A DNA stretch of 64,000 nt, taken from contig JAHQIW010007107.1 in the NCBI GenBank assembly GCA_019055375.1, positions 124,001 through 188,000 of the forward strand, given 5' to 3'. A program made the position numbers and the translations under genes. This document shows, one piece after another, positions 1 to 54,774 of the stretch. The first letter of the stretch is position 1. Each line of letters opens with the position of its first letter. The DNA is from Parelaphostrongylus tenuis (taxonomy: Eukaryota > Nematoda > Chromadorea > Rhabditida > Metastrongylidae). The notes below the pieces were generated by a model. The model saw only the letters and a program-made list of their open reading frames with translations, did no database searches and was not told the origin of the DNA.

Positions 1-1502
1 GTTTCCATTTGAGTATCGTTGTTGTTCTCAGTCACGCTTCTTCTTGCGATTAGGCAGCCATGTTTAACCGAGACAATGAGGTCGTTGACAATCGCAATAG
101 CCGTGCTTTCCCGCTTCTGTAGGTTGAGTGAGATGTCCTGCTTACGTTAAATGCAGAAAGCAATAAAACTGATTCTTTACCTTTGATATCTAACCACGTG
201 AAGTCTCATACTAAGCACCTCTTGAACTGGTTTATACAATCGTGCATATTACCTATGAAGCTTGTCGACTATTGAAGGACTATCATGTGAAGTCGTCCGC
301 GTATGTGCATTGGACATATACTCGGATCTGACTGCGTAATGAAGTATCTATTCAGTGGCGAGTTGTTGAAAATGGCCGACCACGCACGTTGGTTCCGGAT
401 GGTACGACTATTATGAACGTCAATCATAGTGCTGTGGTAAACGGTAGGAACTACTTCAAGCTCTAATGTCCTGGTGTCAGTAATAGCAGCTGTGATGATA
501 TCTTTGTCATTATTATTGTTACTGCCATTATTTACACCAGATTTTCTACAATAAGTTGGGTATCCGGTTGGTAAAGACGTATTTATATGCCTTGTACTCT
601 ATCTAGAGCTATCAAAGACTGTAGTGTTTATCTGCCGCATGATCGAAGAAGCGTTAGCTGAGTTGTTGATAAAACTAGTCTTTATAAATTTCCACTGTAG
701 CTTACGTTTTGATTCATTACCTTCTTCAAAACCAAGTGATTCGACTAAGGTATCCGTAACAGTGATTTTCTCTGTTAGTAGAGTCCTCGTTATTGTGTCG
801 AGCCGAGTCGAGTAGATGGTGCTCCCCACAAATGTGGTAACCTCTATACCAGTTCTCCAGGGTAAAGAATGACTCTATGGTGGTTGTCATCTAACCTTAT
901 CTGCTTTCATAGTAGCAGTTTATCCAGTATACTTCAAGCAGAAATCATTATATTTGGCCGCCTTTAGCGGTGGTATGATGTCATAATATACCCAATGACG
1001 TAGAGTGGTGTGCAAAAACTTTTGCGTCGGCCTAGATTCGAACCCACATTTCATACTATCCGGGTGCGCGCTCAACCGTTGCACTACCGACGCCCGTTTC
1101 GAGCTTTTTGTACACCACTCTACATCATTGTATATTTGTAGCAGAATACTTTATCTGTGCATTGCCTCAGTGCAGACGATTCGGCTCAATGCGGCCATGC
1201 TTCTATCAGTATAATAAGTGTTTAGCTATTAATGTCATTAACTCTCACCGACTCGAGCCGCTGTTGGCGTTTTCCTTTATTGGCTTTTTTTTTCTTTAGT
1301 CCACTGAGCCTCTAAATGTTTACTATATCTATCTATACAATTGTATATACGTTGAATTTATCCTTTAGAGATGACAAATTCAGAGCATCACCAAATAAAT
1401 AAAAGTCCTTCTTTGGTTTACTTACTTCGATTTCGTTTATTTCTACTTTTAAACGTCTATTGCGTATTTTTCGCATTTATTCAACACCTTATGATTATTC
1501 AG
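1..1502. other. Non-coding or intronic stretch upstream of the Ig gene exons
   Basis: No convincing exon is visible here apart from the tRNA-Gly-like repeat at 993-1132. The missing first half of the immunoglobulin domain that ends at 1661 should lie in or before this stretch, but no segment with the expected Cys and Trp framework residues was found. The small open frames here have no recognisable content. Confidence 0.4.
993..1132 (-). repeat. Single unit of the tRNA-Gly-like terminal-inverted-repeat element (family B)
   Basis: The unit starts CAATGACGTAGAGTGGTGTG and ends with its inverted counterpart CACTCTACATCATTG. Between these the minus strand carries a tRNA-Gly-like core: GTCGGTAGTGCAACGGTT (A-box-like) and GGTTCGAATC (B box). 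Compared with the full twin element at 13512-14108, this copy has only one tRNA module. Confidence 0.65.
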
Positions 1503-9500: not shown

Positions 9501-12500
9501 AATGGAGTACGATAAATCAAGACCTATGGAGAAAAATGAATGATACAATGAACAATCCCACTCACCAAACTGGAAAATGAATTCATTGAATGGAATATAT
9601 GTGAAGAAGGATTAAGTCGAAGGTAACCCGACCTCAATGACAGTGTCGACGTCTTCCGTCTTGTCGTCTCCAATAATCTCATCCATCATGATGTCATTCA
9701 TGATTAAGTCGTCGTTTGTCGCCTTTCCGACTAAAATCCTCGCTTGCGATCGATCAGCTGTCGGTTCTTCTAGAAACGTTAACTATCATTTTTTCCTAGC
9801 TCCAATTTGTAAATTAGGCTCATAAAAAGTTTTAGTACTCTGAGTACATCTCGAAAACTCATTACCTCATTAGATATATTTTACCTTCATTATACACTCA
9901 TTGATGTAGAGTGATGTGCAAAACCTTGGCATCAGATGGGAACCGAACCTACATTTCACCCATTCGGGGTCGCACGCTTGAACCGCTGCACTACTGACGC
10001 CTGTTTTGACACCACTATTTCTACGCCAAAACGTATTTATCTGTCAGCAACTAACCGTTAATGGTATGGCACGGGTAATCGCTATCGACATTGAACCCAG
10101 TCACGCTGACAGATATTGAGTGTTAGATGATCAAACACAATTCCTTTTTTAATATAATTTTTAAGAATGTTCAGAGCCTTACCCGAGATTGGTGTGCCAG
10201 AGCCATTCACGTGTTTCGGAGGTCTCGCCCTCTTCGTCAGTGGCCCACGCTCGTCATTAAGCCCTGCACTGTAGCAAGGGGGGAGGCGAATGTGGTGACG
10301 GCACATGTACAATGACATTGTCCTATCACCACTTTTCAGTCGATGGATCGATGGATGCGAAGTTTTGTGACTCTATTGAGACACTTCTGTGATTCATAAA
10401 TCGTCTCCAAATTTTAAATGGTTGAGGTAAGTTACAGAAATATCCACCACCTTTGGACATGGCTGTTTCAGAGGAATAGAGGATGAAACCATACTTTTGA
10501 AAATAGTAGAATCCTTCTCCGCTCATTCCCCTTTGGTTTTCAAGCAACATGTATCTTCTATTACTATGCGATTTTCAAAACCGCTCGAGGTTTCGTCTCA
10601 ACAACATTACAATCCTACTAATAAGCGCATGGTTTCCAGTCTGTCGGCGGCTTTTCGAAACATGATCGTGGCCTACTCTTCTCTGTCTTTTTTTTTCTTC
10701 AACACACCAATCAAATGTAACATATGGTCTCGTATGGTCACCACACATCGTCATTCTTTTTTTCCTGTCACAGCATCAGGAGAAGGTATAACAAGTGCTT
10801 TGAAATTTTACTCTTGCTTGAAAATCGAACCCAAGTATTTGATACAGCTTTCTAATGAACGTCTGTGCTTTTTTTCCTGTCAAAGTTATAACACAGTACA
10901 GAGGTACTGCTTGATCAATATGCGCTTGACGAGTGTCGTTCGTGCGTTCCATGACAGGAGAACTTGAAGTTAAGCTTGACGGAGTAAATAACGAAGTTTA
11001 TTGTTAGAAAACCCCCTTTAACTGCATACCAGCCACAGTTCCGAGTCCACGATCACAGTCTTTGGTGAGATCGACATTAGAAATGAGACTTGCAGAGTAC
11101 TTAGTTTTCATACTTTTCGTTTCGAGTGTTTCTTGAGACCTAGCTCAAATTTCAAAATGCCTTATAGTTATATTTGAACGATGCGTGAGGTCTGTTATGA
11201 GCACTTTTACAATGCAATACACGTGTTTCGGGCTTCCAGCTTCGTCAGTTGCACGATGCCTTTTCGTTCAGTCACTTCCTCGTGGATCTACCCCTAACAT
11301 AGAGGATTCGACGACGAACGTTTTACTAGCGACGTTACGTGTCAAAATCACCAAACGGGCAGTATTGTACACTCGATTGCTCTTGGCTGCACAGTGCACT
11401 GTACTGTATAAATGCCCACAACAAACCTCATGCATAGCTCAAAAAGCTATAAGGCATACTCAGTATACATTCAACGTCGTTTATTTATGAAAGGAATTTA
11501 GTGTATATCAAATAATGAAATAACCGTTATCATATCTGAATTTTTCTCGATCGTTGTAATAATTGACGTTAGGAAGGCTGCTAAAGGTTTGTATCGATAA
11601 TAATATGAAAAAACCCTGTTCAAAGAGTGAAGCGAGTGGGATAGAAATTCAACAGATCCTAAATCTCTTTTAAAAATTGTCTCCGTACTGTCTTATTTGT
11701 AGAGACGGGATTTGGTGGCGCTTTAGGTATAGAAGGTTATCGACTTGAAGGAAAAACAGGACGGTGAACAAGGAGGGAAATCGGAACATAAAGGGTGTCC
11801 GGTAAAAATGATCGGAACCAAGTTTCTGAACTAAACAGGAACTAAAAAAAATAGTTGGGAAATTGGAAATTGAATAACACTTTGAGGTTCTAAACAAAGC
11901 TATACAGTCGAGATGCTAAAACTAGGCATTGAACGGCGAAGTACCGAGTCATGTTTTTATCAACCTTATGCCTACATAAAGAAAACTGATTTATTAGGGT
12001 TGGAAAGATCTGAGGCACTTGTATAAAAACTGAGAATTTGTGCACAAATTCAAAACAAAACAATGATAAATACTCTTCGGTGCATAGGTCATCGTCTTCT
12101 ACGGTTTTCTTCCATCGAGCCGCCAAGTTTTGGATCTGGTCCCGGTTTTGGTCAACCGAAAGCGCATTCTGATGAAGCAAGACACTGCCAGGCGGCACAC
12201 CGCCAAAAGGACCAAAAACAACTCTGATCAATTTGCACAGAGTCAAGATTATGCCGCATCCTGCCTGAAGTCTAATTTGTAAATTGCGCATCTGACTTTG
12301 GCCTTTCCGCATCAATGCAACACTTTTGGAGGGTCGCCAGTTTGAATCGTTCGAAGAAGTTGAAGAATCATGTCAAGAGCTCCTTGATTCGAAGTCGAAG
12401 AAGCTGTCGAATTCGCAAATCCGTAACTTGGTTGGCCGATGGCAGAAAGTTGTAGAAAACGTTGCCTTCATTTTGAAGATTAGCTATTATCGAATACTCA

Positions 12501-13289: not shown

Positions 13290-13809
13290 CTGCTACAACT
13301 TGGATGATTTTCGGAAGAAATTGCAGAAAATAAAACAAAAGTCCTTCGCAGCTCTGTTTTAAGAATTTTGATTAATATTCTAATAGTACAAACAGAGTTT
13401 GCTGGAGAAAAAAAAAACTGCAACATCATTCATATGTGATGAGATGAAAAAGAAAACGAAATGAAAATCATTTTATTTGACTGTCTATTGCGTTGTTATG
13501 ATGTTTTCAATGAACCCAATAATGTAGAGTGGTGTGCAAAAACGTTCGCGTCAGCCGGGATTCGAACCCCGATCTTACTCTTTTCAGGAGGATGTGCTAA
13601 ACCGTTGCACCACCGACGCTCGTTTTGCACTGCCCTCTTTCTACACTATTGAAACCCAATATTTGTCAACAAAACTAAGTTCACTGTCGATAATGACTGC
13701 CCGCCACACCGTAAACTTGCTGTTGACAGATATCGCGTTGTAGCGTAGTAAGAGTGGAATGCAGAACGAGCGTCGGTGGTGCAACGGTTTAACACATCCT
13801 CCCGAAAAG

Positions 13810-14057
13810 AGTAAGATCTGGCTGGTAATCATTATTTTAGCCACGCATGTCAGTGGTCTGTCAATGAGGGCTGACTTATAGAGCCCGATACACGTGTTTC
13901 GATCTTGCGATCTCGTCAGTCGGGCAGTTACCCTTTCTCGTCTTTTGCTAATCTCTGTGGGTGCTCCAGTCCCCACAATAAGAGTTAGCGGCGACGTACG
14001 ATTTACACTCTGTGTCCAGTGAAAAGTCTGGTCTGTCCAAACAAAAGTAAGATCTGG
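13810..14057. mobile_element. Ribozyme-bearing retrozyme-like insertion with 12-bp target-site duplication
   Basis: The sequence AGTAAGATCTGG flanks the insert on both sides (13810-13821 and 14046-14057) and belongs to the interrupted tRNA-like arm. The 224-bp insert carries the family 1 ribozyme at 13883-13925 and ends CCAAACAAAA. The insertion defines an end near ATCATTATTTTAGCC and shows that the family moved as a discrete unit. Confidence 0.75.
13883..13925 (-). ncRNA. Hammerhead ribozyme, family 1, full core
   Basis: Minus strand: stem I GCCCGA, core CTGACGA, stem II GATC-GCAA-GATC, GAAA, short stem III on CACGTG, cleavage triplet GTA, then TCGGGC closing stem I with six pairs. All conserved core residues are present. 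Confidence 0.85.
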
Positions 14058-31749: not shown

Positions 31750-33335
31750 ATTTGGAAGACTTCACTCGATTCGATTCCCAGGGATTGTTGAGTTCTAGTA
31801 ATAACTTTGACAACTCGTACTTTTCGGATTTTGCACTTTCAAACTGAGGTGTTTATGACGCCGTGGAAAATCTGGAAACATGAGCTAACTAATTCGTCGA
31901 GCCTCAAAAAGTGTACAAACTATCATTACTAACTATATTGATGAGAAGATGAGGGAACAGATGTTGGACTTCAGTTAAATGTGGCGCACAGTGATATTAC
32001 TAAAGTTTTTCTATTTCTTCGCCACTTTATTTTTCCAAACTTCTCTTGAATGGCAGTTGTTTGAGAGAAAGCAAAGTGAGAAAAAGAATCGACAGAGGTC
32101 TGTGAGAAATGTGAAGATGAGACATGTCAGTGCTCATGTGAATATTGTAAGCACACAAATCTCCATACATGCACACACAATAATTTCATTCAAATTGTGC
32201 GCTTTTATTCAAACGATAACAACAGCCACCATCGTTAGTCATTGTATAAATCAAAGATGAATCGACGCATAGCACGGCGGAATGGCGGCTATCTTACAAG
32301 CAAAAATAATAATGTAAAAGGACTTCTAAAAAGGTGTTACGCGCTCCTAATCGGGGTTTGTTTATAGCGCATTACAATGACTTATAATGAGTAAAGGTTG
32401 TTTAATCAAAAACATGATATTTATGCCCATTGATGGATAACGGAAAGACTAATGTGCAGTTCTTGTGCATTATAGGGTGGATGACTGAAGATGTAGCTGT
32501 AGCGCGCCCGAGGTACTTGATTACTAGTTGAAACTCGATTGATATTGACAATGAGTGCTGAAAATAAAGAGAAAGGAAATAAAGATGTAAAGAAAGCAGC
32601 TACAATGAAACACTTGTGACAATTGCAATTTTCTATTGACAGTGGATCGCTAAATAGAAGCACCATTAAATTGTCTTCATTACAGTTCAAGTGTGAGAGC
32701 TTCAAGTGCTTTGCGAGTACTGAGATAAATCATGCAACTAGTCAATAAATTTGCGTAAGACAAATTAAAACGCGCAAATAAATTTAGTGAAGTAGAACAG
32801 AAATTTGAATAGGAAAGAAAAATAAATGGCCAAATTTTACATGATTGGTGACATTGATTATACTGATTTGTATTTTCTCTTCCCTATTGTATTTTGCGCT
32901 CAAAGAAAAAGAAAAAGGCACACCAGAGCACTGCATCCAAGATAAATTCATGTTTAAGACACGGTTAGGTAATGGGTCAATCTGTTTTAAGCAAGAAATT
33001 ATTTCCAACCGAATGAATGATTCAAAAATGAAAAGCAAGTGGTCCGCAAAAAGCATCTCACTCTCACGACGCGGTGACACCTATGGGTAGCAAACTTGTT
33101 CCTGGTGATCGATTTCAATGCACAGAAGTTTTTAGTTTTTCGAAATTTTTGCGACCAATCGTTATTCAAAAATATGGAGACACCATAGCAAACGTTGTTC
33201 CTAGGAAAATGTTTGCTTGGTAATTTTCTACCTGAATGTTTTAATAATTTCCCGGCTCAAGCTTTTTCCATCTGCTATGAATTGGCAGTGCTTGCACAAT
33301 ATTCTGCAAAACATCTTGCTTGGAGAATATATATA
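31750..33335. other. No gene or known repeat recognised
   Basis: Only short frames; 32421-32705 and 32784-33080 (minus) show no domain. Confidence 0.35.
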
Positions 33336-33338
33336 TAC

Positions 33339-33722
33339 CTTTATTTTGAGTGCTTTATTAAAACCACGCTCAAATTTCAATAGATCCTTTCATCATTATT
33401 TGAGCCAACATGTCATGTGGTCTGGTAAGGGATCTTGTACAGCCCGAGACACGTGTTTCGTCCTTACAGACTCATCAGCCGGGCAGAACCCGTCGTGTCT
33501 TTCTTTTTATAGTCAGTTCTCCTCGGGAGCGTTACACTCCTTGTAGAGAGTAATCGACGACGTACGCTTTACACTCAATGTCAAGTGAAACGTTCACCCA
33601 ACACAGAGTGTTTCACACTCGATTGATCGCTGCTGTATTTCTATCATACCATACCTTTATTTCGAGTGCTTTATTAAGACCACGCTCAAATTTCAATAGA
33701 TCCTTTCATTATCATTTGAGCC
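33339..33722 (-). mobile_element. Family 1 ribozyme element with 316-bp direct repeat
   Basis: A 66-bp block (TTATTTYGAGTGCTTTATTA, then ARACCACGCTCAAATTTCAA, then TAGATCCTTT and TTTGAGCC) occurs at 33341-33406 and again at 33657-33722, a period of 316 bp. One ribozyme lies in between. The element is therefore about 1.2 monomers of a tandem unit, on the strand where the ribozyme is read as minus. Confidence 0.75.
33442..33484 (-). ncRNA. Hammerhead ribozyme, family 1, full core
   Basis: Minus strand: GCCCGG (stem I), CTGATGA, stem II GTC-TGTAAG-GAC, GAAA, CACGTG as minimal stem III, cleavage triplet GTC, TCGGGC (stem I partner). The predicted cut lies between 33448 and 33447. Core residues match the hammerhead consensus exactly. 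Confidence 0.9.
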
Positions 33723-33921
33723 TCTTAATAAAGTACTCGAAATAAAGGTATAATATGATAAAAATACCAGCCAGCGGCCAATCGAGTGCGAAAACACTCT
33801 GTGTTGGGTGAATGTTTCACTTGACATAGAGTGTAAAGCGTACGTCGTCGATAACTCTCTATAAGGAGTGTAATGCTCCCGATAGAACTGACTATAAAAA
33901 GATCGACAGACGACGGGTTCT

Positions 33922-33964
33922 GCCCGGCTGATGAGTCTGCAAGGACGAAACACGTGTCTCGGGC
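33922..33964 (+). ncRNA. Hammerhead ribozyme, family 1, full core
   Basis: Plus strand: GCCCGG, CTGATGA (33928-33934), stem II GTC-TGCAAG-GAC, GAAA, CACGTG, GTC, then TCGGGC. The predicted cut is between 33958 and 33959. It mirrors the copy at 33442-33484 in the other arm of the inverted repeat. Confidence 0.9.
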
Positions 33965-34020
33965 TGTACAAGAGCCCTTACCAGACCACATGACATGTTG
34001 GCTCAATGAATGATGAAAGG

Positions 34021-34075
34021 TATATATATATATATATAATATTATCTATATATCATATATATAATAATAATATAA
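34021..34075. repeat. (TA)n microsatellite between ribozyme element and SINE
   Basis: TATATATATA with ATAATAATAATA variants, joining the inverted repeat to the SINE at 34075. Confidence 0.85.
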
Positions 34076-34366
34076 AGGATAAAGCTCTCGCCGTTGATCA
34101 ATCTCTGAGGGATGCGCCATGCATTCGACTTCAATTTTAACTTCGTTTGAGGTGATTGAATGCATATTTGGCCTTTACAATGACTCGCGGTGGCCTCCCG
34201 CTGAACCGAGTCAGTGCTGCCTATCCTCCCAGACAAGTCTGAGACCGTCTGGTACCATTTACCGACCACGAGGGAAGGATGACTTGCTAAGCCATGAGCG
34301 TGACATCGAACATTGACCTCGTGTGCACGCAGACGCCTCCAACCACTGCGCCACATGCACTCTATG
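34075..34366 (-). mobile_element. SINE family A copy
   Basis: Minus strand: GAGTGCATGTGGCGCAGTGG head (A box), GGTCAATGTTCGATGTCACG (B box), GGCCACCGCGAGTCATTGTA, CCTCAGAGATTGATCAACGG and a TTTATCCTTT tail. Nearly complete. Confidence 0.8.
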
Positions 34367-34439
34367 TCATGTACAGTACATACTATGTATATATATGCAT
34401 ATGCATGCATATGTCGGTGTAGAGATAAAGGATTAGGTT

Positions 34440-34692
34440 GCTGACATTATTTAATCACTGAGGGATGGACGAGCTAAGCTGTCGACTTTATCAATCGTCG
34501 TTTGAGTTGATCCTATGCATATCTGTCCTATGAAATGACTTGCGTTGGCCTACCGATGTATCAAGCCAGTGTTTCCAGATAGATCTGCTACTACCAGGCT
34601 GACTACAGAAGCAGGAAGAGGAGATGAGCTGCGCGAGCACGACTGAACCATTGACCGTTGCAGGACACTTTTAATCACCGCGCGCAAGAGTC
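34440..34692 (-). mobile_element. SINE family A copy, degenerate
   Basis: Inverse of the family body: GGCCAACGCAAGTCATTTCA, CAGATATGCATAGGATCAAC, and a head region with GGTCAATGGTTCAGTCGTGC as B box and CGCGGTGATTAAAAGTG as A-box region. Confidence 0.65.
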
Positions 34693-37155: not shown

Positions 37156-37165
37156 TTCGCTCTGA

Positions 37166-37555
37166 GTGTTTTTTTAAGATCACGCTCAAATATTAATATG
37201 CCTGATAATTACTTCTGAGCCATGCATGTGGTCTGCTATGGGTGCACTTGCATGTGGTCTGCTATGGGTGATACAGCACAATACACGTGTTTCGGCCTTG
37301 CAGCCTCGTCAGTCGTTCTGTCTTTTTCGTCTGAACCAATCCATCTTGGGACTGATCCTCCTTACATAAGGGAACCGCAGATGTAATATACTTCCACGAG
37401 CTGTTAAGTGATGAAAATTACCAAATAGCGGTATTACACATTTGATTCTTGACTGATAATCTGAAAATATCACACCGTTTGTTCCAAGTGTTTTCTCAAG
37501 GCCACCTGCACATTTCAATATGCCTGATAATCATCTTCCGTGTTCCATTTTAGCT
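37166..37555 (-). mobile_element. Family 1 ribozyme element with direct repeat of about 323 bp
   Basis: GAGTGTTTTTTTAAGATCAC then ATATGCCTGATAATTA at 37166 recurs as AAGTGTTTTCTCAAGGCCAC then ATATGCCTGATAATCA near 37489. The ribozyme at 37276-37318 lies between. A 25-bp block (GCATGTGGTCTGCTATGGGT) is also duplicated locally at 37225-37270. Confidence 0.65.
37276..37318 (-). ncRNA. Hammerhead ribozyme, family 1, full core
   Basis: Minus strand: GAACGA (stem I), CTGACGA, stem II GGC-TGCAAG-GCC, GAAA, CACGTG, GTA, TTGTGC. Stem I pairs with one mismatch and a G-U. Confidence 0.8.
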
Positions 37556-38162: not shown

Positions 38163-38532
38163 ATGTTACATTAAGCCCAATGTAATGTGCAAAAACGTTT
38201 ATGTCGACCGGGATTCGAAACCAAATCTTACTCTTTCGGGGAGCATGCTCTAAACCGTTGCACCACCGACGCTTTGTTTTTAATGACTTTCGATCAATTA
38301 TTGAAACTCAATATCTGTCAGTATAAGTAGGTTCAAGATCGATAATAACTGCCTCGCCACACCGTAGACGGTTAGCTGTTGACAGGTAACGCGTTGTAGC
38401 GTGAAAGAGTGAACTCCGAAACGAGCGTCGGTGGTGCAACGGTTCAGCACATGCTCCCGAAAAGAGTAATATCTGGGTTCAAATTTCGGTCGACGCAGTC
38501 GTTTTTGCACACCACTTTACATCATTGGGTTT
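38163..38532. mobile_element. Twin tRNA-Gly-like foldback element, 370 bp, family B
   Basis: Left module: CGACCGGGATTCGAAACC with GCACCACCGACGC. Right module inverted: GCGTCGGTGGTGCAACGGTT with GGGTTCAAATTTCGGTCGAC. Ends CCCAATGTAATGTGCAAAAA and TTTTTGCACACCACTTTACA then TCATTGGG. The central spacer (TTGAAACTCAATATCTGTCA) matches that at 13650-13750. Confidence 0.75.
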
Positions 38533-47400: not shown

Positions 47401-50400
47401 AGGTGGGAGAAAAGTTAAGCTCGTTGGTGAGTAATAAAACGCACTCTATTCTTTAGTGAGATTTCAGTAGGACTGAGATGCTGATTTATTATTGATGAAT
47501 TCTTATCATGAAATCACCTTCTTTCAAATAACAGAGATCTAGATATCAATACACGATTGTTCTTTAGAACTTTTAACTGATTACGAAACTTTCGATTGAA
47601 AGCTTTCTTTGAAGATATTGAACTTGACAATTTCTTTCTCAGAAGTACATAGGTTGCATAAATTGAATACGTTCAAAAATCAAAGATTTTCATAACCACA
47701 TTTGAAGTTTCATGCCTATTCTGCCTTATTGTTTTCATGTGTGTTTTTATATTAGTTCGCATTCTGGCCGCATTTATTCTCGCTTTTTCAATACACAGAC
47801 TGCGTTGAAATAATGTCAACTGCCTTGCCAGTATTTTGAAAACTTCTTAGACATAATAAAATTTTTGATCGCGTGTAGCGCAGTGGCTAGAGGTATTCTA
47901 CTACCTATGAGCGGTCGATCAACTGATAGTCGATGGTACTTTGCTGCGCCCATAGCTCATCAAGCTTTCCATCGGACCGCGCTGGTCAAATTGATACCAG
48001 CCCCAAGTGGGAGGATAACAGCACTGACCTGATGATCGGTAAACCACTGCGAGTCATTGAAAAGGCCAGATATGTGTGCATTCAACCCTACGAGTGATGC
48101 TAGATGAAAACGAATTCATGGTGCATCGCCCTGGGATTGATCAGCGTTGAGACTCCCTGATAAGTGCTAAACTATACAAGAAACTCATAATTATCATTTG
48201 AGCCAGCATGTATGTGGTCTATGAATGGGCTCTTGTACAGCTCGACACTCGTGGTCTTGGCCTCTTCGGCAGGCCTGTCTTCTTTGGATGCTCCAGTCCC
48301 CCTAGTTAAGAGAGGAGACGAGGAACGATTTAAACAATTGCCGTCAAGTGAAATAATCACTAGATCGGCAATGTTGTACACTCGATTGTTCTTGGCTGGT
48401 ATTTTTGGAACTTTTTTTCTTTCACCTTCGCCTACTAAATAGGGTGACTGGAGCACCTCGAGAGGACTGGTTGAAGGCGAAGGACCTGCCCGAGTGACGA
48501 GGGTGTTCAAGGCCGCAATACGTGTATCGAGCTGTACAAGAGCCCATTAACAAACAACATGACATGTTGGCTTAAATAATAATTATGAGATATAGTTGGA
48601 ATTTGAGCGTGGCTGTGATCTTAAGAAAACACTCGAAACAAGCAGCGTATAAGAAACTGTAATTGATTTTCCATACCGAGGTTCAAGGAAGATCGATCTT
48701 CATGATGAAATTTCGTTGACGTGTCGTGGAAAAATTACAAAAATCAAAGAAGTAAATGCGGCAGTACGAGAGTTAGCAAAAAATGCTCAATAACGACTGT
48801 TGTAAAATATAATCGTATATTAGTCATGTCTGATATGCTTTTCAACTGTAGGTAGAACGCAGTGACCAAGTCTACACTGCACAAGCTTTCGCGGCTACTC
48901 GCTTCGGATCGACAAAGCTCAAAACGTACCAAGTGCGTCGATGCTCTAATCCACTAAAACATGATTAGGCGAGAATACAAATACCATAAGATGTACTGGC
49001 TGAGATCAAAATGTATTACTCATTGGCATATATAGCCAACAGAAACAAAATTGAAAAAAGCTTCAATCGAACAAAAAAAGCATTCAGAAGTCCGCATTCG
49101 GATTGTGACGGCAAAAAGTTGAATGTTAGAATTGAGAACTTTGAGTCAATAGAGGATTTCTGACTAATCATTCATTTATGGATAAGTGATTTCAAAGTGT
49201 GTTCTTTTTCAAATTCTAGTCATCACAAGGCGGTGACAATGGTTTTCGTCATCATCCGTTCACAATGCCTTCGATCTATGCGTATTTGAGGTAAACTTCA
49301 GATGTTTTGCTGTTGCATGGCATCCCTGAATGATTGTCACCCAGCTGTTCGTCTTCAGACTGTTTTCGTTTCTGAACACAATTGCTTCTGCGGCGACGAT
49401 GATACAAAAAAATGGCGAGGACACCAACACTCAAAAGGCGAATGAAGAGTTTTCAAATGACAGAAAGGTAGACTGTGTAGGTGGAAATTTTAGGAGAATC
49501 AATGTCGACGAATTAAAACGGTTAGAATAGTTCGACACGTGTAATGGTCCTAAGTGCTAAAAAATATTTTTTCTATCTGCATTGTTCTCTATCCATGTAG
49601 AATTACTCTTGAAGCATAAAAGTAGAAAAATATAATCTGACAATGTTTTTGAGCCCTCTATGAGGTCTGTTATGGGCAGTTATACGGCCCAAGACACTGT
49701 CTCGGCTTTCGAGCCTCTTTTTAAATCAATCAGTTCCTCAGGGATCTACCCCTACATAAAGAAATCGACGGCAAAGTGTTTACCTTTCAAAGTCGATTTG
49801 ATTGTCGATTGTATGGTGTATAGCTGCTACGTTGGCATATGTAACAAACACTGCAATCGACTATTTTGAGACTTCGCTCACAGACAATAAATTTGCCAAT
49901 GTTTTCCTCTATACAGAAGTAGATTACCGAAGAACTGACTCAAAGAAGAGGCACCGTGCAGCTGACGAGGCTGGAATGTCGAAACTGTGTCTAGCACTGT
50001 ATAGGTGCCCATCAAAATAGTCGACTGCAGTAGATAAATAGTGTGACTATCATAAGAATGAGGAACCGCTTTTGTCTCTAAGAGAGTTTTGATAAGCATT
50101 CTTGGCTATTTAGAACGGTAGTTGTCTTCAACATGATTCATTTCGTACGGACAATTCAGCGTTCATGCACAATTGAATAGTTCTTCATATTCAGTCAATC
50201 AACTGACTTTTTTTATTACGAGATTTACTTCCTTTTCCTTTCTTTCCTTGTTGGGGCCGCATAATAGAACAACTGTTTCAAGAAACCAGTTCACAGCGCC
50301 TCTTTCTCGAGTCCCAGAGAAAATGTTCACTGAAACACGTGTAATCACTTATGGAGCCTCAATCGAAAGAAAAAACACTTAGGGTGATGTGTAAACAGCA

Positions 50401-52763
50401 TAAATCCGTCTTTGGCACATACACTCAATCAAAAATACGTTTCTCATAATCGCTATCTGAGGCATTTGTCATGTGGTGTGTTGAATGGGCTCTTGTACAG
50501 CCCGATACATGTGTTTCGACCTTGACAGTCCCGTCAGTAGGGCAGAAATCTCGTCTTTTAGCCAATCCTCTGGTCGCCCTTTGAGGCAGACGATACAGCC
50601 TTGGGGTGTCCACCTCACGACTTTTGTTCGTCCATAAGGCGTCCGTTTCTGTAGTCACTTGAATACCCATCGTGCTTCACTAGCGATTTATAAGCTTGTG
50701 AACCTCGAAGATAAGATAGATTTTGAGGGTTTGAGTTGTTTTCCGCCTAAATGTCGTGCGTGCCGGTTATACTGTAGAAGACATTGTTAAAAAGCTTTTG
50801 TTTAATTCCTTCTTCATGTTACTTCCTATGATCAAGAGACGCTCAAGGTAGACTTCACGAGGTGGTCTCTATGTCAAAAGACTGTCTAATGCGGCTTATT
50901 TACTCTCCCATTACAAATTTTTCAGAACAAGGTTGCTTTCAGTCTATTCGCATAATCTTCCTCTTTTTGTTGATGAGATGACATCTTCTTTACTTTGTTG
51001 GTATCTCCTAAAATCATAGCGATATCTTCAGCAAAACGATGATTTAATGGAAAATCTCCATCAACATGCATATACCTCTCTTCCCAATCGAGCGACTTCA
51101 TTATCCACTGTAGTGCGGTATTTAACAACTTATACGAAATGGTGACACCTTGTTGGACTTCCTTTCTTATTAGTATGGTAAGCGGCTGGGAAAAGTGTAT
51201 TTTTGTGGTGTGTTTCGATAATAGTCGAAAAAGCTTTGTGTATGACAAATCCACTCATTGGTTAACGAGCGTTGATAGGATCGCATTCCTTTCATCGCTG
51301 TCGAACATTGTTCCCTAACCGAGAAACTGAGAATTAGAGACTTGTAATTCCCATGAAATTTCTGTGATCCAGAATACGATTTTGATATAGTCTATGCAGT
51401 AAAATCCGTGTCAAAAATCTGCTTACTCATCTTGTTGTGTCTCATCCAAGACCTTTGATAAAGTTGATAGAATTTACTTAATAGGCATATCGGACAGTAG
51501 TTAAGAAGATTTCTTTGGTCACCTTTCTGCGGCAACACTATAGTGCACGACGTTCTCCACTGGTCTGAGAATTGTTCCATTTAAGGGTAGGATAATCTAG
51601 AAGTTGTGAGGAATACATTTAGATTGAAGTTTCCAGCTCTAAGACAAATGGAGGTGATGTTATGGATTAGGATGGTTTTCACCAGCGGGGATTTCGATGC
51701 AAAAGTTTCAATTATCCTATTTTGCCATCTTTGCGCATGTCACGACGCTACTTCTTCAAACTGAATTTTCTTTTATGATACTTTTATCAGTTTATCTTGC
51801 TAGGTAAATCTTCCTACAAAGTTTTTCTGCAGATAACCTTTGATATTACTTCTATTGAAGGTGTAGCATAAGAATTATGACTCAGCTCCTTTTTCTTCCC
51901 GCGCAACTCCTTAGTAAAATTGGAGATGCGATGTGAACATCTTGCTTCAAGGATTGAAGCTAGTTCGGCACGGCTTTCACTCCTTAAATAAAAAGTCTCC
52001 GTTCAGCTCTTTCTCAGTCAGCTAGTTACGATTGGAGAGCATTTTGCTCAAAAGTTCTCATTATATATGGCTTACCTATTTCTTTGAGAACTGAAACCGA
52101 AGTCCTTCTCTAGTTTGTGGCTCAATCGAATCACTGTGGGAAGGAGAAAGCGGTGGTCGAACCCAACAACCAATGAGTCGAATAGGCGTTGCCTTCTGTT
52201 TGTAAAAAGTTGGTCGGTCTCAGTATGTATTGTGCCGTTGAATGATTCGCGGACTCTTTCTTTCTTTCGGGAAGAAGAATTTTGATGGGTGAAGCACTCT
52301 GCGAAAAGAAGTTCTGTCAAATGAATTCCAATCTTATTTCCTTTTCCTAGTCCATAGTCACAATGAATAACTCCCTCCAACTAGTAGAAGATCGCTCAAT
52401 TGATGATGATGACCTTTCTATGACAGTTTGGCTGACAATTGAGGAATGTCATTTGAGGTGGAAAGATTTCTTGTGAGTCGACACAATTGTCTTTGACACT
52501 GGACAAACATCTGCTTCGCTTTCATCTTTTATTTTACTCTATAAACAGTGAGAATTTATTACTGGACTTTATAATACGAGTCGTCTTTTGGTGATTAAGC
52601 ACACTTAAAGCAATCGCACTTCCTCAGACGAAACACATTGAATCTGTGTAGTTGTGTAATCGTTAATTTGCAACTTAAGGCGTATAATTCAAAGGTGCTG
52701 CCTTACAATTTTTTAGTAATATCTTCGTAGTCGTCGTTTGCCTTAATACCCGTATATGCATGC

Positions 52764-52794
<31 letters not shown>

Positions 52795-54774
52795 CGCTCA
52801 TAAATTTATGTAAATGTATGCATATTTGTACACATATGTAGCTGTATATGCATTCGTACACGTAATGTGAACACGAGCATGGTATATACGTACATGTGTG
52901 CATATGTATGTAATTAAACATAGACATTTATATTTATATATAGTTAAAAACTTGGAGATGAAATTAGAGCAATGAATTTCTTTAGTTGTCCATCGTCTGT
53001 GAATGATGATTTTGCCGCATTATAGTATCATTCCAGCTATCAGTGAAAAGTCTGAAGTGGTAAATGAAGAGTGAAGGTGATCAGAGTTGCTTGTTGGATC
53101 GAAACTGGTTAATAAATCTTAATTTTGGAAATTGGTTTCTCTTTTTTTTTGAACACTGTAGACAGTATAAACATGTGAGGCTCATATTACGATAAACACC
53201 AAAATGATGGGACGACTCCAGTAACCATCAGGTTAAAAAAACTGAACTTGATCACAGAGTTTTACTTGACGGCCATTAGGACTGAGTATTCTGAAATGTA
53301 TTCTGTGAAAGCATTAGTCTCAGTTGGAATACGAACCTACCAATAGGAGGATGAAAAGAGTGTGGACAAATTTCACTGACACCTGAAATTTCCGAAGTTT
53401 TATGGATAAGGGCAGATTATTTTTTTTGAAAAAAAGGACGGATAATACGAGCACTTTCTAAATTTCTAATGACTCTTAAAGAAAACCCACCTTACTAACG
53501 TGAAAGAAATAAAGAATTCAAGAGTAAAGAAAAATAGCTATAGCGAAATTCTGTAAAGAAATATACGCAAGCGCCTACTTTCCAGTGCAGACCGATCTAA
53601 ACTATTCAATTTTAAGGTGAGCACATTCCCTTTTCTCTGTTTACACTTGTTTTTGATATTTCATCAATATCTGGGAGCCCACAAAGTAATGGTCTGGACA
53701 GTTTCAAACATCAATGATTGCTGTAATGCGCACAACCGCCCATTTTCTGATTTACTGGTAATTATTGTTGTTATTAAGCAACTGTATCGATGATTTGTTA
53801 GATCATGTGTTAGAAGGGTGTTCTCTAAACGACGCTGCCGTAAGTGCTACACATCTCGCTTTTCGAGGCACTCAACTCAACTGTCTTGCACACTTTTCAC
53901 TACGCTACATAGGTCTAATCCAACTAGTGAGTGCACTTTTATCATCTCTTCAGCTAAGGAAGGATTTCACTCTCGCCATCTTATCCACCGTTTACCTGAT
54001 TGAAACCACTATTATTATTAACTAGAAATCTTTTTGAAGCTTTTAATGGTGATATGATGTTACAAATTATATCCAATATTGTTGAGAGATGAGCAATTTT
54101 GAACGTCGGAAGGGATTCAAACACGCATTTTACCCTTTCCAGAGGCACATAGTAACCATCGCGCTATCGCGCTCATTCTGCTATCATTCTTTCTGTAACA
54201 CATTTGTATCGATCTGTCAACAATCAACCGTCAACGTCGCAGCAAGAGTAGTGACAGAACAAGCTTCGTTAGTGCAATGGTTAGCATGCGTCCCCGGAAA
54301 AGTCGAAATGTGCGTTCGAATCCCTTTCGACATTTAAAGTTCTGCATATCACTCAACAATATTGAAAGGCCACTAAATTCATATTATATTGATTGGTCAG
54401 TTGCAAGCCGGTGGCTTCTGCCCACTATTCGTATAAACTATCTTTCGTCTCGTACTATGTTTTGAAAAAAAAAAAGAAAAAAGAAGAGTTTCCCCACTCA
54501 TGAATGACAAAGTGGCCGAACCATTGCTATCTCCTGCACTCGATGTACGTATTGAATCCGATTCAGACTCGGGCTTAATGGAGGAGTTGCGATCCTCCAC
54601 AAACCGTGCGTTGTAATTCACCTGGAATCATCGCCCGATCTCATCATTTTCAGATTCAGGTCTGAATTGACCCTTACTGAAGACGATGGCGAAGGCCAGA
54701 GGTCTGACCATAACAGCGGTGTGCCGTATCCCACACCTGTTTATCTCATGCATACAACATTGCCTTCGCGCTAA
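44436..54774 (+). CDS. fog-3: BTG/Tob-family protein, FOG-3-like (8 exons)
   Basis: Exons 44436-44503, 44605-44711, 44880-45029, 47266-47426, 48852-48932, 49220-49290, 54487-54612 and 54654-54774 (TAA) join in phase to give about 294 residues. The N-terminus MFIEIEETVCFIASFLYGRI then PKSRIDSFAELLANGLADRI matches the BTG/Tob start (hydrophobic helix, LYG.IP...V..F...L). SFGAFISSAELAKALPANLL then LELRDGAVHAVNVETGHVKC and IY matches box-B-like LP..L...I..G.V....E.G.VK.IY. The rest is Arg-rich, then acidic and Ser-rich (ESDSDSGLMEEL). BTG/Tob proteins act in mRNA regulation; in C. elegans FOG-3 specifies sperm fate. The symbol is by family resemblance only. Introns 3 and 4 (45030-47265, 47427-48851) and the 5.2-kb intron 6 are full of repeats. 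The acceptor of exon 7 is purine-rich, so exon 7 could be skipped: exon 6 also joins exon 8 in phase. Confidence 0.72.
46240..46558 (+). mobile_element. SINE family A copy in an intron of the BTG/Tob gene
   Basis: Head GAGCGCATGTCGCGCGGTGG, then TTAGAGGTGCTCTGCGTCGC and GGTTGTTCGATCTCGCACTC (B box). The body has ACCAGACTGGTCTCAGGCTT and the 3' block CGTCGAGAGCTTTATCCTTT. Almost full length. Confidence 0.8.
47867..48168 (+). mobile_element. SINE family A copy in an intron of the BTG/Tob gene
   Basis: Head GATCGCGTGTAGCGCAGTGG then CTAGAGGTATTCTAC; body GGGAGGATAACAGCACTGAC, GAAAAGGCCAGATATGTGTG; 3' end GGGATTGATCAGCGTTGAGA. Confidence 0.75.
48240..48276 (-). ncRNA. Hammerhead relic, family 1, core lost
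   Basis: Minus strand shows CTGCCGA in place of CTGATGA, and GAAAC replaced by CACGAG. GTC and TCGAGC remain. Not expected to cleave. Confidence 0.5.
48488..48532 (+). ncRNA. Hammerhead relic, family 1
   Basis: GCCCGA, GTGACGA (first core base changed), GCAA where GAAA is expected, ACGTGTA, then TCGAGC. Stem I still mostly pairs; core changes argue against activity. Confidence 0.55.
49686..49722 (-). ncRNA. Hammerhead relic, family 1
   Basis: The minus strand keeps GAGGCTCGAAAGCC-like stem II/core remnants and GTC followed by TTGGGCC, but CTGANGA is lost. Confidence 0.4.
49956..49997 (+). ncRNA. Hammerhead ribozyme, family 1, core intact
   Basis: GTGCAG (stem I), CTGACGA (49962-49968), stem II GGC...GTC with one G-U, GAAA, CTGTGTC with GTC as cleavage triplet, then TAGCAC. 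Stem I pairs at five of six positions (one G-U) and differs from the 33922 pair. The cut is predicted after 49991. Confidence 0.75.
50455..50680 (-). mobile_element. Family 1 ribozyme repeat, single unit
   Basis: Contains the block TGTCATGTGGTGTGTTGAAT then GGGCTCTTGTACAGCCCGAT and the ribozyme at 50500-50543, as in 33386-33520. The far end is diverged. Confidence 0.6.
50500..50543 (-). ncRNA. Hammerhead ribozyme, family 1, one core change
   Basis: GCCCTA, CTGACGG (last core A is G), stem II GAC...GTC, GAAA, CACATG, GTA, TCGGGC. Near-complete; the core substitution probably weakens or abolishes activity. Confidence 0.65.
50920..52400 (-). pseudogene. RTE-type retrotransposon: endonuclease end plus reverse transcriptase
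   Basis: In minus-strand order: end of the endonuclease domain (TDQLFTNRRQRLFDSLVVGF then DHRFLLPTVIRLSHKLEKDF, the SDHRLLRAKIRFSHKxEK block), then SDQWRTSCTIVLPQKGDQRN then LLNYCPICLLSKFYQLYQR, then LLNTALQWIMKSLDWEERYM then HVDGDFPLNHRFAEDIAMI. The last is the palm C block, where FADD has become FAED. Stops and frame changes show decay. It lies antisense in intron 6 of the BTG/Tob gene. Confidence 0.8.
52755..52940. repeat. (TA)n/(CATA)n microsatellite
   Basis: TATATATATG, GTATGCATATTT and GTACATGTGTGC units over about 185 bp. Confidence 0.85.
52945..54070. other. Intronic stretch, no exon assigned
   Basis: Within intron 6 of the BTG/Tob gene. The 86-codon frame at 53765-54025 has no domain and no consistent splice pair. 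No repeat recognised. Confidence 0.35.
54072..54363. mobile_element. Twin tRNA-like foldback element, 292 bp
   Basis: Ends CAATATTGTTGAGAGATGAG and its inverse CATATCACTCAACAATATTG. The left module has GGGATTCAAACACGCATTTT; the right has TTAGTGCAATGGTTAGCATG (A box) and GCGTTCGAATCCCTTTCGAC (B box). Same plan as 38163-38532 with a shorter spacer. Confidence 0.7.

Follow-up and report, generated by a model that had tools for sequence, protein, structure and literature searches.

The locus and its hammerheads

The window (64,000 nt of a Parelaphostrongylus tenuis contig) contains a 686-bp element at 33335-34020, in which two hammerhead-bearing arms are opposed head-to-head. Positions within the element refer to a 316-nt unit, U, defined as the minus-strand reading from 33722 to 33407. 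The features are as follows.

33335..33722, minus strand: arm A, 1.23 U units, from its outer end at U72 (tailed, site A) to its inner end at U1
33335..33385, minus strand: tail, U22-U72, between sites B and A, outermost part of arm A
33442..33484, minus strand: type I hammerhead of arm A (RF00163, 34.9 bits, E 5.5e-05), predicted cleavage 33448/33447
33684..33721, minus strand: inner copy of the U stem-loop, predicted fold U2-9/U32-39 plus U12-16/U25-29, loop U17-24
33714..33723, unstranded: head-to-head junction, inner ends U1 (arm A) and U32 (arm B), with a 9-nt overlap
33714..34020, plus strand: arm B, U32 to U21, the outer end being site B, without tail
33922..33964, plus strand: type I hammerhead of arm B (RF00163, 35.1 bits, E 4.7e-05), predicted cleavage 33958/33959
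34021..34038, unstranded: TA microsatellite at the insertion point, ATATATATATA on both sides of the element
11109-11389, 13828-14027, 37164-37520, 48190-48404, 48486-48641 and 50444-50559: U-like remnants

The inverted repeat reported in a first-pass annotation is real, the arms being 92% identical over 299 alignment columns by BLAST (ungapped pieces of 126, 91 and 45 nt with 91-95% identity), although the element extends 51 bp further left than annotated. The same annotation's "316-bp direct repeat" does not hold, as 316 is the period of U and only 72 bp are repeated (33335-33406 and 33651-33722, 94% identity). The arms overlap over 33714-33722 and this central junction lies within the predicted U stem; site B falls in or beside the loop U17-24, and the tail segment U22-U72 is missing at the outer end of arm B. 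The target duplication of this copy is not delimitable because the insertion occurred in a TA microsatellite with ATATATATATA on both sides. The only frame of at least 110 codons across the element is a 113-codon stop-to-stop stretch, and the frames starting at the hammerhead ATG comprise 20 codons in arm B and 3 codons in arm A. A Pfam scan of 10 of the 33 window ORFs with at least 110 codons detected no family at the cut-off.

Other features were observed in the window. The six older U-like remnants listed above show 61-78% identity, and diverged direct repeats (72-76%, ~355 bp apart) occupy 34072-34576, just right of the element. Two tRNA-like stretches, 13547-13619 (minus strand) and 38425-38497 (plus strand), have nearly the same sequence, and since a portion is found again beside locus L050, in its flank, they are perhaps heads of a tRNA-derived SINE. 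Positions 54562-54683 (minus strand) match the U8 snoRNA with 41.5 bits against a cut-off of 41.

In a covariance search of both strands with the Rfam type I model, both hammerheads exceeded the gathering score of 34. The sequence agrees with the previous annotation in the complete core, both cleavage positions, the GTC triplet and stem I (GCCCGG/TCGGGC), and the assignment to type I, with a palindrome in the stem III region, was right. The suggestion that the two could act as a dimer is unlikely given the predicted fold, since whichever strand is transcribed, the RNA contains one hammerhead in sense and the other in antisense orientation. In the predicted fold of the plus-strand RNA of this copy (-513.7 kcal/mol), 42 of the 43 hammerhead nucleotides pair with the opposite arm. 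To act as a dimer, the hammerheads would have to meet on two separate RNAs or lie head-to-tail on one transcript. RNA from this locus is probably a silent hairpin, judging from the folding model, and active RNA more likely arises from arms longer than one unit or from single arms.

The ribozyme core is conserved within the family. Among 74 arms of the first genomic sample described below, which were scanned along U in 43-nt windows, 20 of the 316 windows were more conserved than that of the hammerhead. The commonest core changes are U275 C to A in 27 of 76 (C/A 49:27) and U249 T to C in 26 of 76 (T/C 50:26), followed by U244 in stem I, which is A in 15 of 75. U249 corresponds to hammerhead position 7 and U275 to the cleavage base; hammerheads tolerate change at both. 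Judged from the sequences, this pattern of variation is what selection for cleavage would leave, although descent from two sub-families would yield identical variants. A second hammerhead family, with a 49-nt motif, was also detected in the genome (45.8, 41 and 35.6 bits in L083-L085), and it too occurs as an inverted pair, in L082 (1015-1063, minus strand, and 1218-1266, plus strand, 154 nt apart).

Arrangement, ends and junctions of U copies

U is a dispersed non-coding 316-nt repeat family. Copies were sampled twice from the 481.5-Mb assembly (5105 contigs), and as each search retained the best-scoring windows only, the figures for copy number and for the proportion of pairs are estimates that apply to copies similar to the query. 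In the first sample the query was the 686-bp element, which gave 97 matches in the best 40 of 4820 candidate windows; 39 fetched loci plus the window copy were mapped onto U, and in 39 of these 40 a minus arm on the left adjoins a plus arm on the right, the exception being L045. Because this query is itself an inverted dimer, a second sample was drawn with the probe U100-230, which contains neither the ends nor the junction. The best 40 of 1777 candidate windows were scored and 34 loci fetched, of which L070/L071/L072 represent one copy and L053/L064 another, according to their common flanks, leaving 31 distinct loci; this probe favours arms that reach U100-230, short copies being under-sampled.

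In the second sample an adjacent head-to-head pair with each arm of at least 60 nt was found in 20 of the 31 distinct loci, and single arms make up eight of the remaining 11. An opposite arm is present but short in L069 (22 nt) and L079 (44 nt). Adjacent arms were arranged minus-plus in 27 cases, plus-minus in three and minus-minus in one (pieces longer than 20 nt, with L053 and L064 both counted). The inverted pair, which the first-pass annotation had regarded as an unusual form of dimeric retrozyme, is thus the commonest form of the family. Arrays of three or more units were absent from the mapped loci of both samples; same-strand matches ~320 nt apart occur at contigs C54 and C2683 (best 40 of 1568 candidates scored). 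Arms longer than 316 nt account for 28 of 64 in the second sample (longest 541) and 56 of 79 in the first (longest 739). In L076, 222 nt of non-U sequence (1378-1599) separate two opposed U arms and are perhaps filler captured at joining.

The two extremities of the arms behave differently. In the second sample (L064 included), 56 of 64 arm 3' ends fall in site A (U58-92) or site B (U7-45), windows that together cover 74 of the 316 U positions. The two outer-end sites are separated by ~50 nt and lie downstream of the hammerhead cut, at a distance of 62-113 nt (62-68 nt from the cut to B and 113 nt to A). The inner (5') ends are scattered and arm lengths vary widely. Considering both samples, 59 of 60 central junctions are distinct (58 with orientation ignored), which indicates that the pair arises at insertion. 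A palindromic 686-bp master copy that transposes as a unit, either transcribed or as DNA in a foldback- or MITE-like manner, so that the pair is inherited, is therefore very improbable: many copies can indeed be aligned with the window copy over its full length, but clustered outer ends together with differing inner ends are the opposite of what copying a finished palindrome would produce, and in the presumed allelic copies L013/L020 and L038/L039 the junctions differ by no more than 4 nt.

Many copies are flanked by target duplications of 8-15 bp. In the first sample a duplication of at least 7 bp (mostly 8-13 bp) was found in 27 of 39 copies, a set that includes two allelic duplicates, compared to 4.8% with swapped flanks. 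Comparison of the flanks of the 31 distinct loci of the second sample revealed clear 10-14 bp duplications at eight (L052, L060, L066, L068, L070, L075, L077 and L078), most loci having no clear one. The 20-nt flanks in the first sample are 67% and 71% AT, the window being ~61% AT.

These observations also bear on the origin of the inverted repeats as assembly or amplification chimeras. L070 and L071, which lie ~18 kb apart on contig C1918, are one U copy with common flanks in opposite orientation, and the copy appears again on C1222 (L072). Either a large segment was duplicated in inverted orientation or the assembly is faulty there, so that some contigs may hold artefactual inversions. As a general explanation, chimeras are hardly credible, since in many copies the two flanks differ except for the short target duplication, the ends lie at set positions of the element and presumed allelic copies agree.

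Regarding the combination of ends, the second sample included 11 copies with one A and one B end, one with two A ends and three with two B ends (11 of 15 mixed; p 0.06 against one half). One of the latter, L067, has a 27-nt piece reaching U67 outside the counted arm. Mixed ends were found in 29 of 31 copies of the first sample, but its query itself has one tail.

The inner ends of the first sample initially seemed to obey a rule: with the gap subtracted, the median of their sums was 42, close to the U stem register of 41, 38 of 39 copies lay between 19 and 70, and this spread was matched by none of 10,000 permutations. A constant junction register, first explained by the two cDNAs annealing at the U stem, was withdrawn together with that explanation, as the sums in the second sample spread over the whole unit and the regularity is consequently an artefact of the inverted-dimer query. 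The same result bears on self-priming, in which the cDNA folds back or an antisense RNA template primes itself, as proposed for the head-to-head pairs of rotifer Penelope (Arkhipova et al., 2013, PMC3846280). In four copies of the first sample, including that of the window, the junction lies in the U2-9/U32-39 stem with an overlap of 8-10 nt, as this process might leave; however, these four come from a sample whose query had that very junction, and the second sample fits no single stem register. Furthermore, self-priming does not predict a second outer end at the neighbouring start of reverse transcription (56 of 64 outer ends are located at A or B), nor the single tail of each of 11 resolvable coding pairs (see below). 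With both outer ends at start sites and junctions that vary, priming from two target ends fits better, and self-priming is considered unlikely. No pile-up of inner ends at U276, as run-off at the hammerhead 5' end would leave, was observed in the second sample, a weak test because the samples are biased to long arms.

The arms of one copy resemble each other more than arms of different copies. At variable sites they agreed in 45 of 50, 42 of 48 and 47 of 49 cases against expected fractions of 0.61, 0.52 and 0.70, and mean likeness was 94.0% between arms of one copy versus 89.6% between copies; in 47 of 51 copies, however, the partner arm was no closer to one of the arms than some other copy was. 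Agreement within copies would be expected if a single RNA, or RNAs from a single source locus, had served as template for both arms.

Coding Penelope-like elements in the same genome

Searching the genome with the GIY-YIG profile (PF01541), 150 matches were scored among 1723 candidate places. At one of the loci (L104) a single 608-aa open frame encodes RVT_1 and GIY-YIG domains, the combination found in Penelope-like elements; a search of solved structures with this frame gave no match. Among the 150 scored matches, neighbours within 8 kb were arranged minus-plus in 20 cases, plus-minus in none, plus-plus in one and minus-minus in one, evidencing that the coding elements are also placed head-to-head. 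Both outer ends were read in 12 of the 20 pairs, of which 11 were resolvable. In all 11, exactly one arm carries a 37-nt tail motif (score 34-37 of 37 versus 6-11 in the other arm), and 8-13 bp are common to both flanks, reaching at least 10 in 10 of 11 compared to 2 of 132 swapped pairs. Pooling the U copies of the second sample with these coding pairs, 22 of 26 have mixed ends (p 0.0003). In the twelfth pair (contig C411) the left end is replaced by a U arm. This arm (L128, G000:C411:53672-53832) lies in a coding Penelope-like 3' end, ~20 nt before the expected untailed end, and U thus appears to insert into its presumed helper.

A minimal hammerhead-like motif (CTGAAGA...GAAACGTC) was recognized by eye in the coding copies; Rfam did not report it in the 11 of 20 coding loci searched, in contrast to the hammerhead of U, which is type I by Rfam. 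In three coding copies (L102, L097 and L089) the tail segment, which lies just past the B end, follows this motif at 66-67 nt, and the conserved tail motif ends 103-104 nt from it, the corresponding distances in U being 62-68 nt (B) and 113 nt (A). Comparison of U with the coding 3' ends showed no firm sequence similarity, the score being reached by 111 of 1000 shuffles and, in further tests with 2000 shuffles each, by 17, 80 and 502 (local) and by 73, 102 and 1166 (global); sequence homology was therefore set aside as suggestive at best. An RNA stem common to U and the coding start site was unsupported by the folding of four coding copies.

U-like sequence was found near 4 of the 20 coding loci (L097, L101, L103 and L105). 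A U-like pLTR belonging to a coding element was considered and rejected, these occurrences being tentatively read as separate insertions, and an autonomous element with U as its pLTR was absent from the 20 coding loci. U itself contains no RT plus GIY-YIG ORF and, at 316 nt, is too short for one.

Proposed insertion from both target ends and kinship with retrozymes

Based on this evidence, the feature in the window is, in our judgement with good confidence, a copy of a non-autonomous, non-coding retroelement family, U, inserted by Penelope-type target-primed reverse transcription from both target ends. According to this model, the target would be cut with a stagger and both ends would prime reverse transcription, with antisense cDNA starting at site A (U~72) from one end and at site B (U~21-27) from the other. 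Both cDNAs would extend inward, stop at variable points and then be linked, which would leave a head-to-head inverted pair with a short target duplication on its flanks. The enzyme is presumably supplied in trans by a Penelope-like RT, and the template may be circular or multimeric RNA made by the hammerhead. Both cDNAs may often be primed on one RNA, each start site then being used once, which would explain the mixed ends.

Priming of both target strands is deduced here from the architecture of the copies. In vitro, the step itself has been reported with one lizard element: its Penelope-like protein cuts and extends both target strands, and reverse transcription starts inside the RNA at two adjacent sites, the segment between them being the genomic tail (Frangieh et al., 2024, PMC11167929). 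In that assay no difference between the strands was noted in where synthesis started, which alone does not predict mixed ends (PMC11167929). In rotifer Penelope the pLTRs are likewise head-to-head and a tail is optional on one of them (PMC3846280). U shares with Penelope-like elements the head-to-head plan, the optional tail on one arm, the short target duplications, the two adjacent starts of reverse transcription and a hammerhead upstream of them (PMC3846280, PMC11167929), and differs from them in lacking room for RT and endonuclease and, relative to the coding copies of this genome, in having a hammerhead that Rfam scores as type I. The two end sites of U point to the mobilising machinery, and the end marks suggest the Penelope-like genes of this genome as the movers of U. 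Since U and the coding 3' ends share a layout and no firm sequence similarity, mobilisation in trans is proposed from form.

The kinship with retrozymes and Penelope-like elements noted in the first-pass annotation was right. As metazoan retrozymes do, U has a non-coding unit within 170-400 nt, a type I hammerhead, multiple copies, target duplications of more than 4 bp and coexistence with Penelope-like elements (Cervera and de la Pena, 2020, PMC7229834). Metazoan non-LTR retrozymes, however, are described as tandem repeats, from dimers to 62-mers in Acropora, and the terms "inverted" and "head-to-head" are absent from the main text of that article (PMC7229834), whereas U occurs mostly as head-to-head pairs. 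The W-elements of schistosomes are also satellite-like, putatively mobile repeats, for which hammerheads and target duplications are discussed; neither "head-to-head" nor "retrozyme" occurs in the W-element description (PMC8490949). In the open-licence PMC literature, a head-to-head retrozyme was named in no title or abstract opening found. U can thus be described, from its sequence features, as retrozyme-like in form and not as an autonomous Penelope-like element, its multicopy non-coding unit having a type I hammerhead that passes the Rfam cut-off and carrying the two adjacent 3' end sites and the head-to-head, target-duplicated architecture of Penelope-type insertion.

A broader and more tentative reading, to which we give somewhat less than even weight, is that the head-to-head pair is the normal Penelope-type product, in which one RNA is used with each start once, so that a tailed arm would be opposed to an untailed one in every full insertion, and that hammerhead retrozymes would be parasitic on this machinery, presenting it with circular RNA. 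A circular RNA template would account for arms longer than one unit.

According to a review, metazoan retrozymes have no conserved motif betraying the retrotransposon that mobilises them, Penelope-like elements being only likely candidates (PMC7761336). U adds the case of a retrozyme-like element that bears the footprint of Penelope-type insertion. The two end sites, their spacing and the head-to-head plan constitute a footprint of the mobiliser that can be read from genomes alone, and the U copies provide a natural record, in a non-coding family, of Penelope-type two-ended priming.
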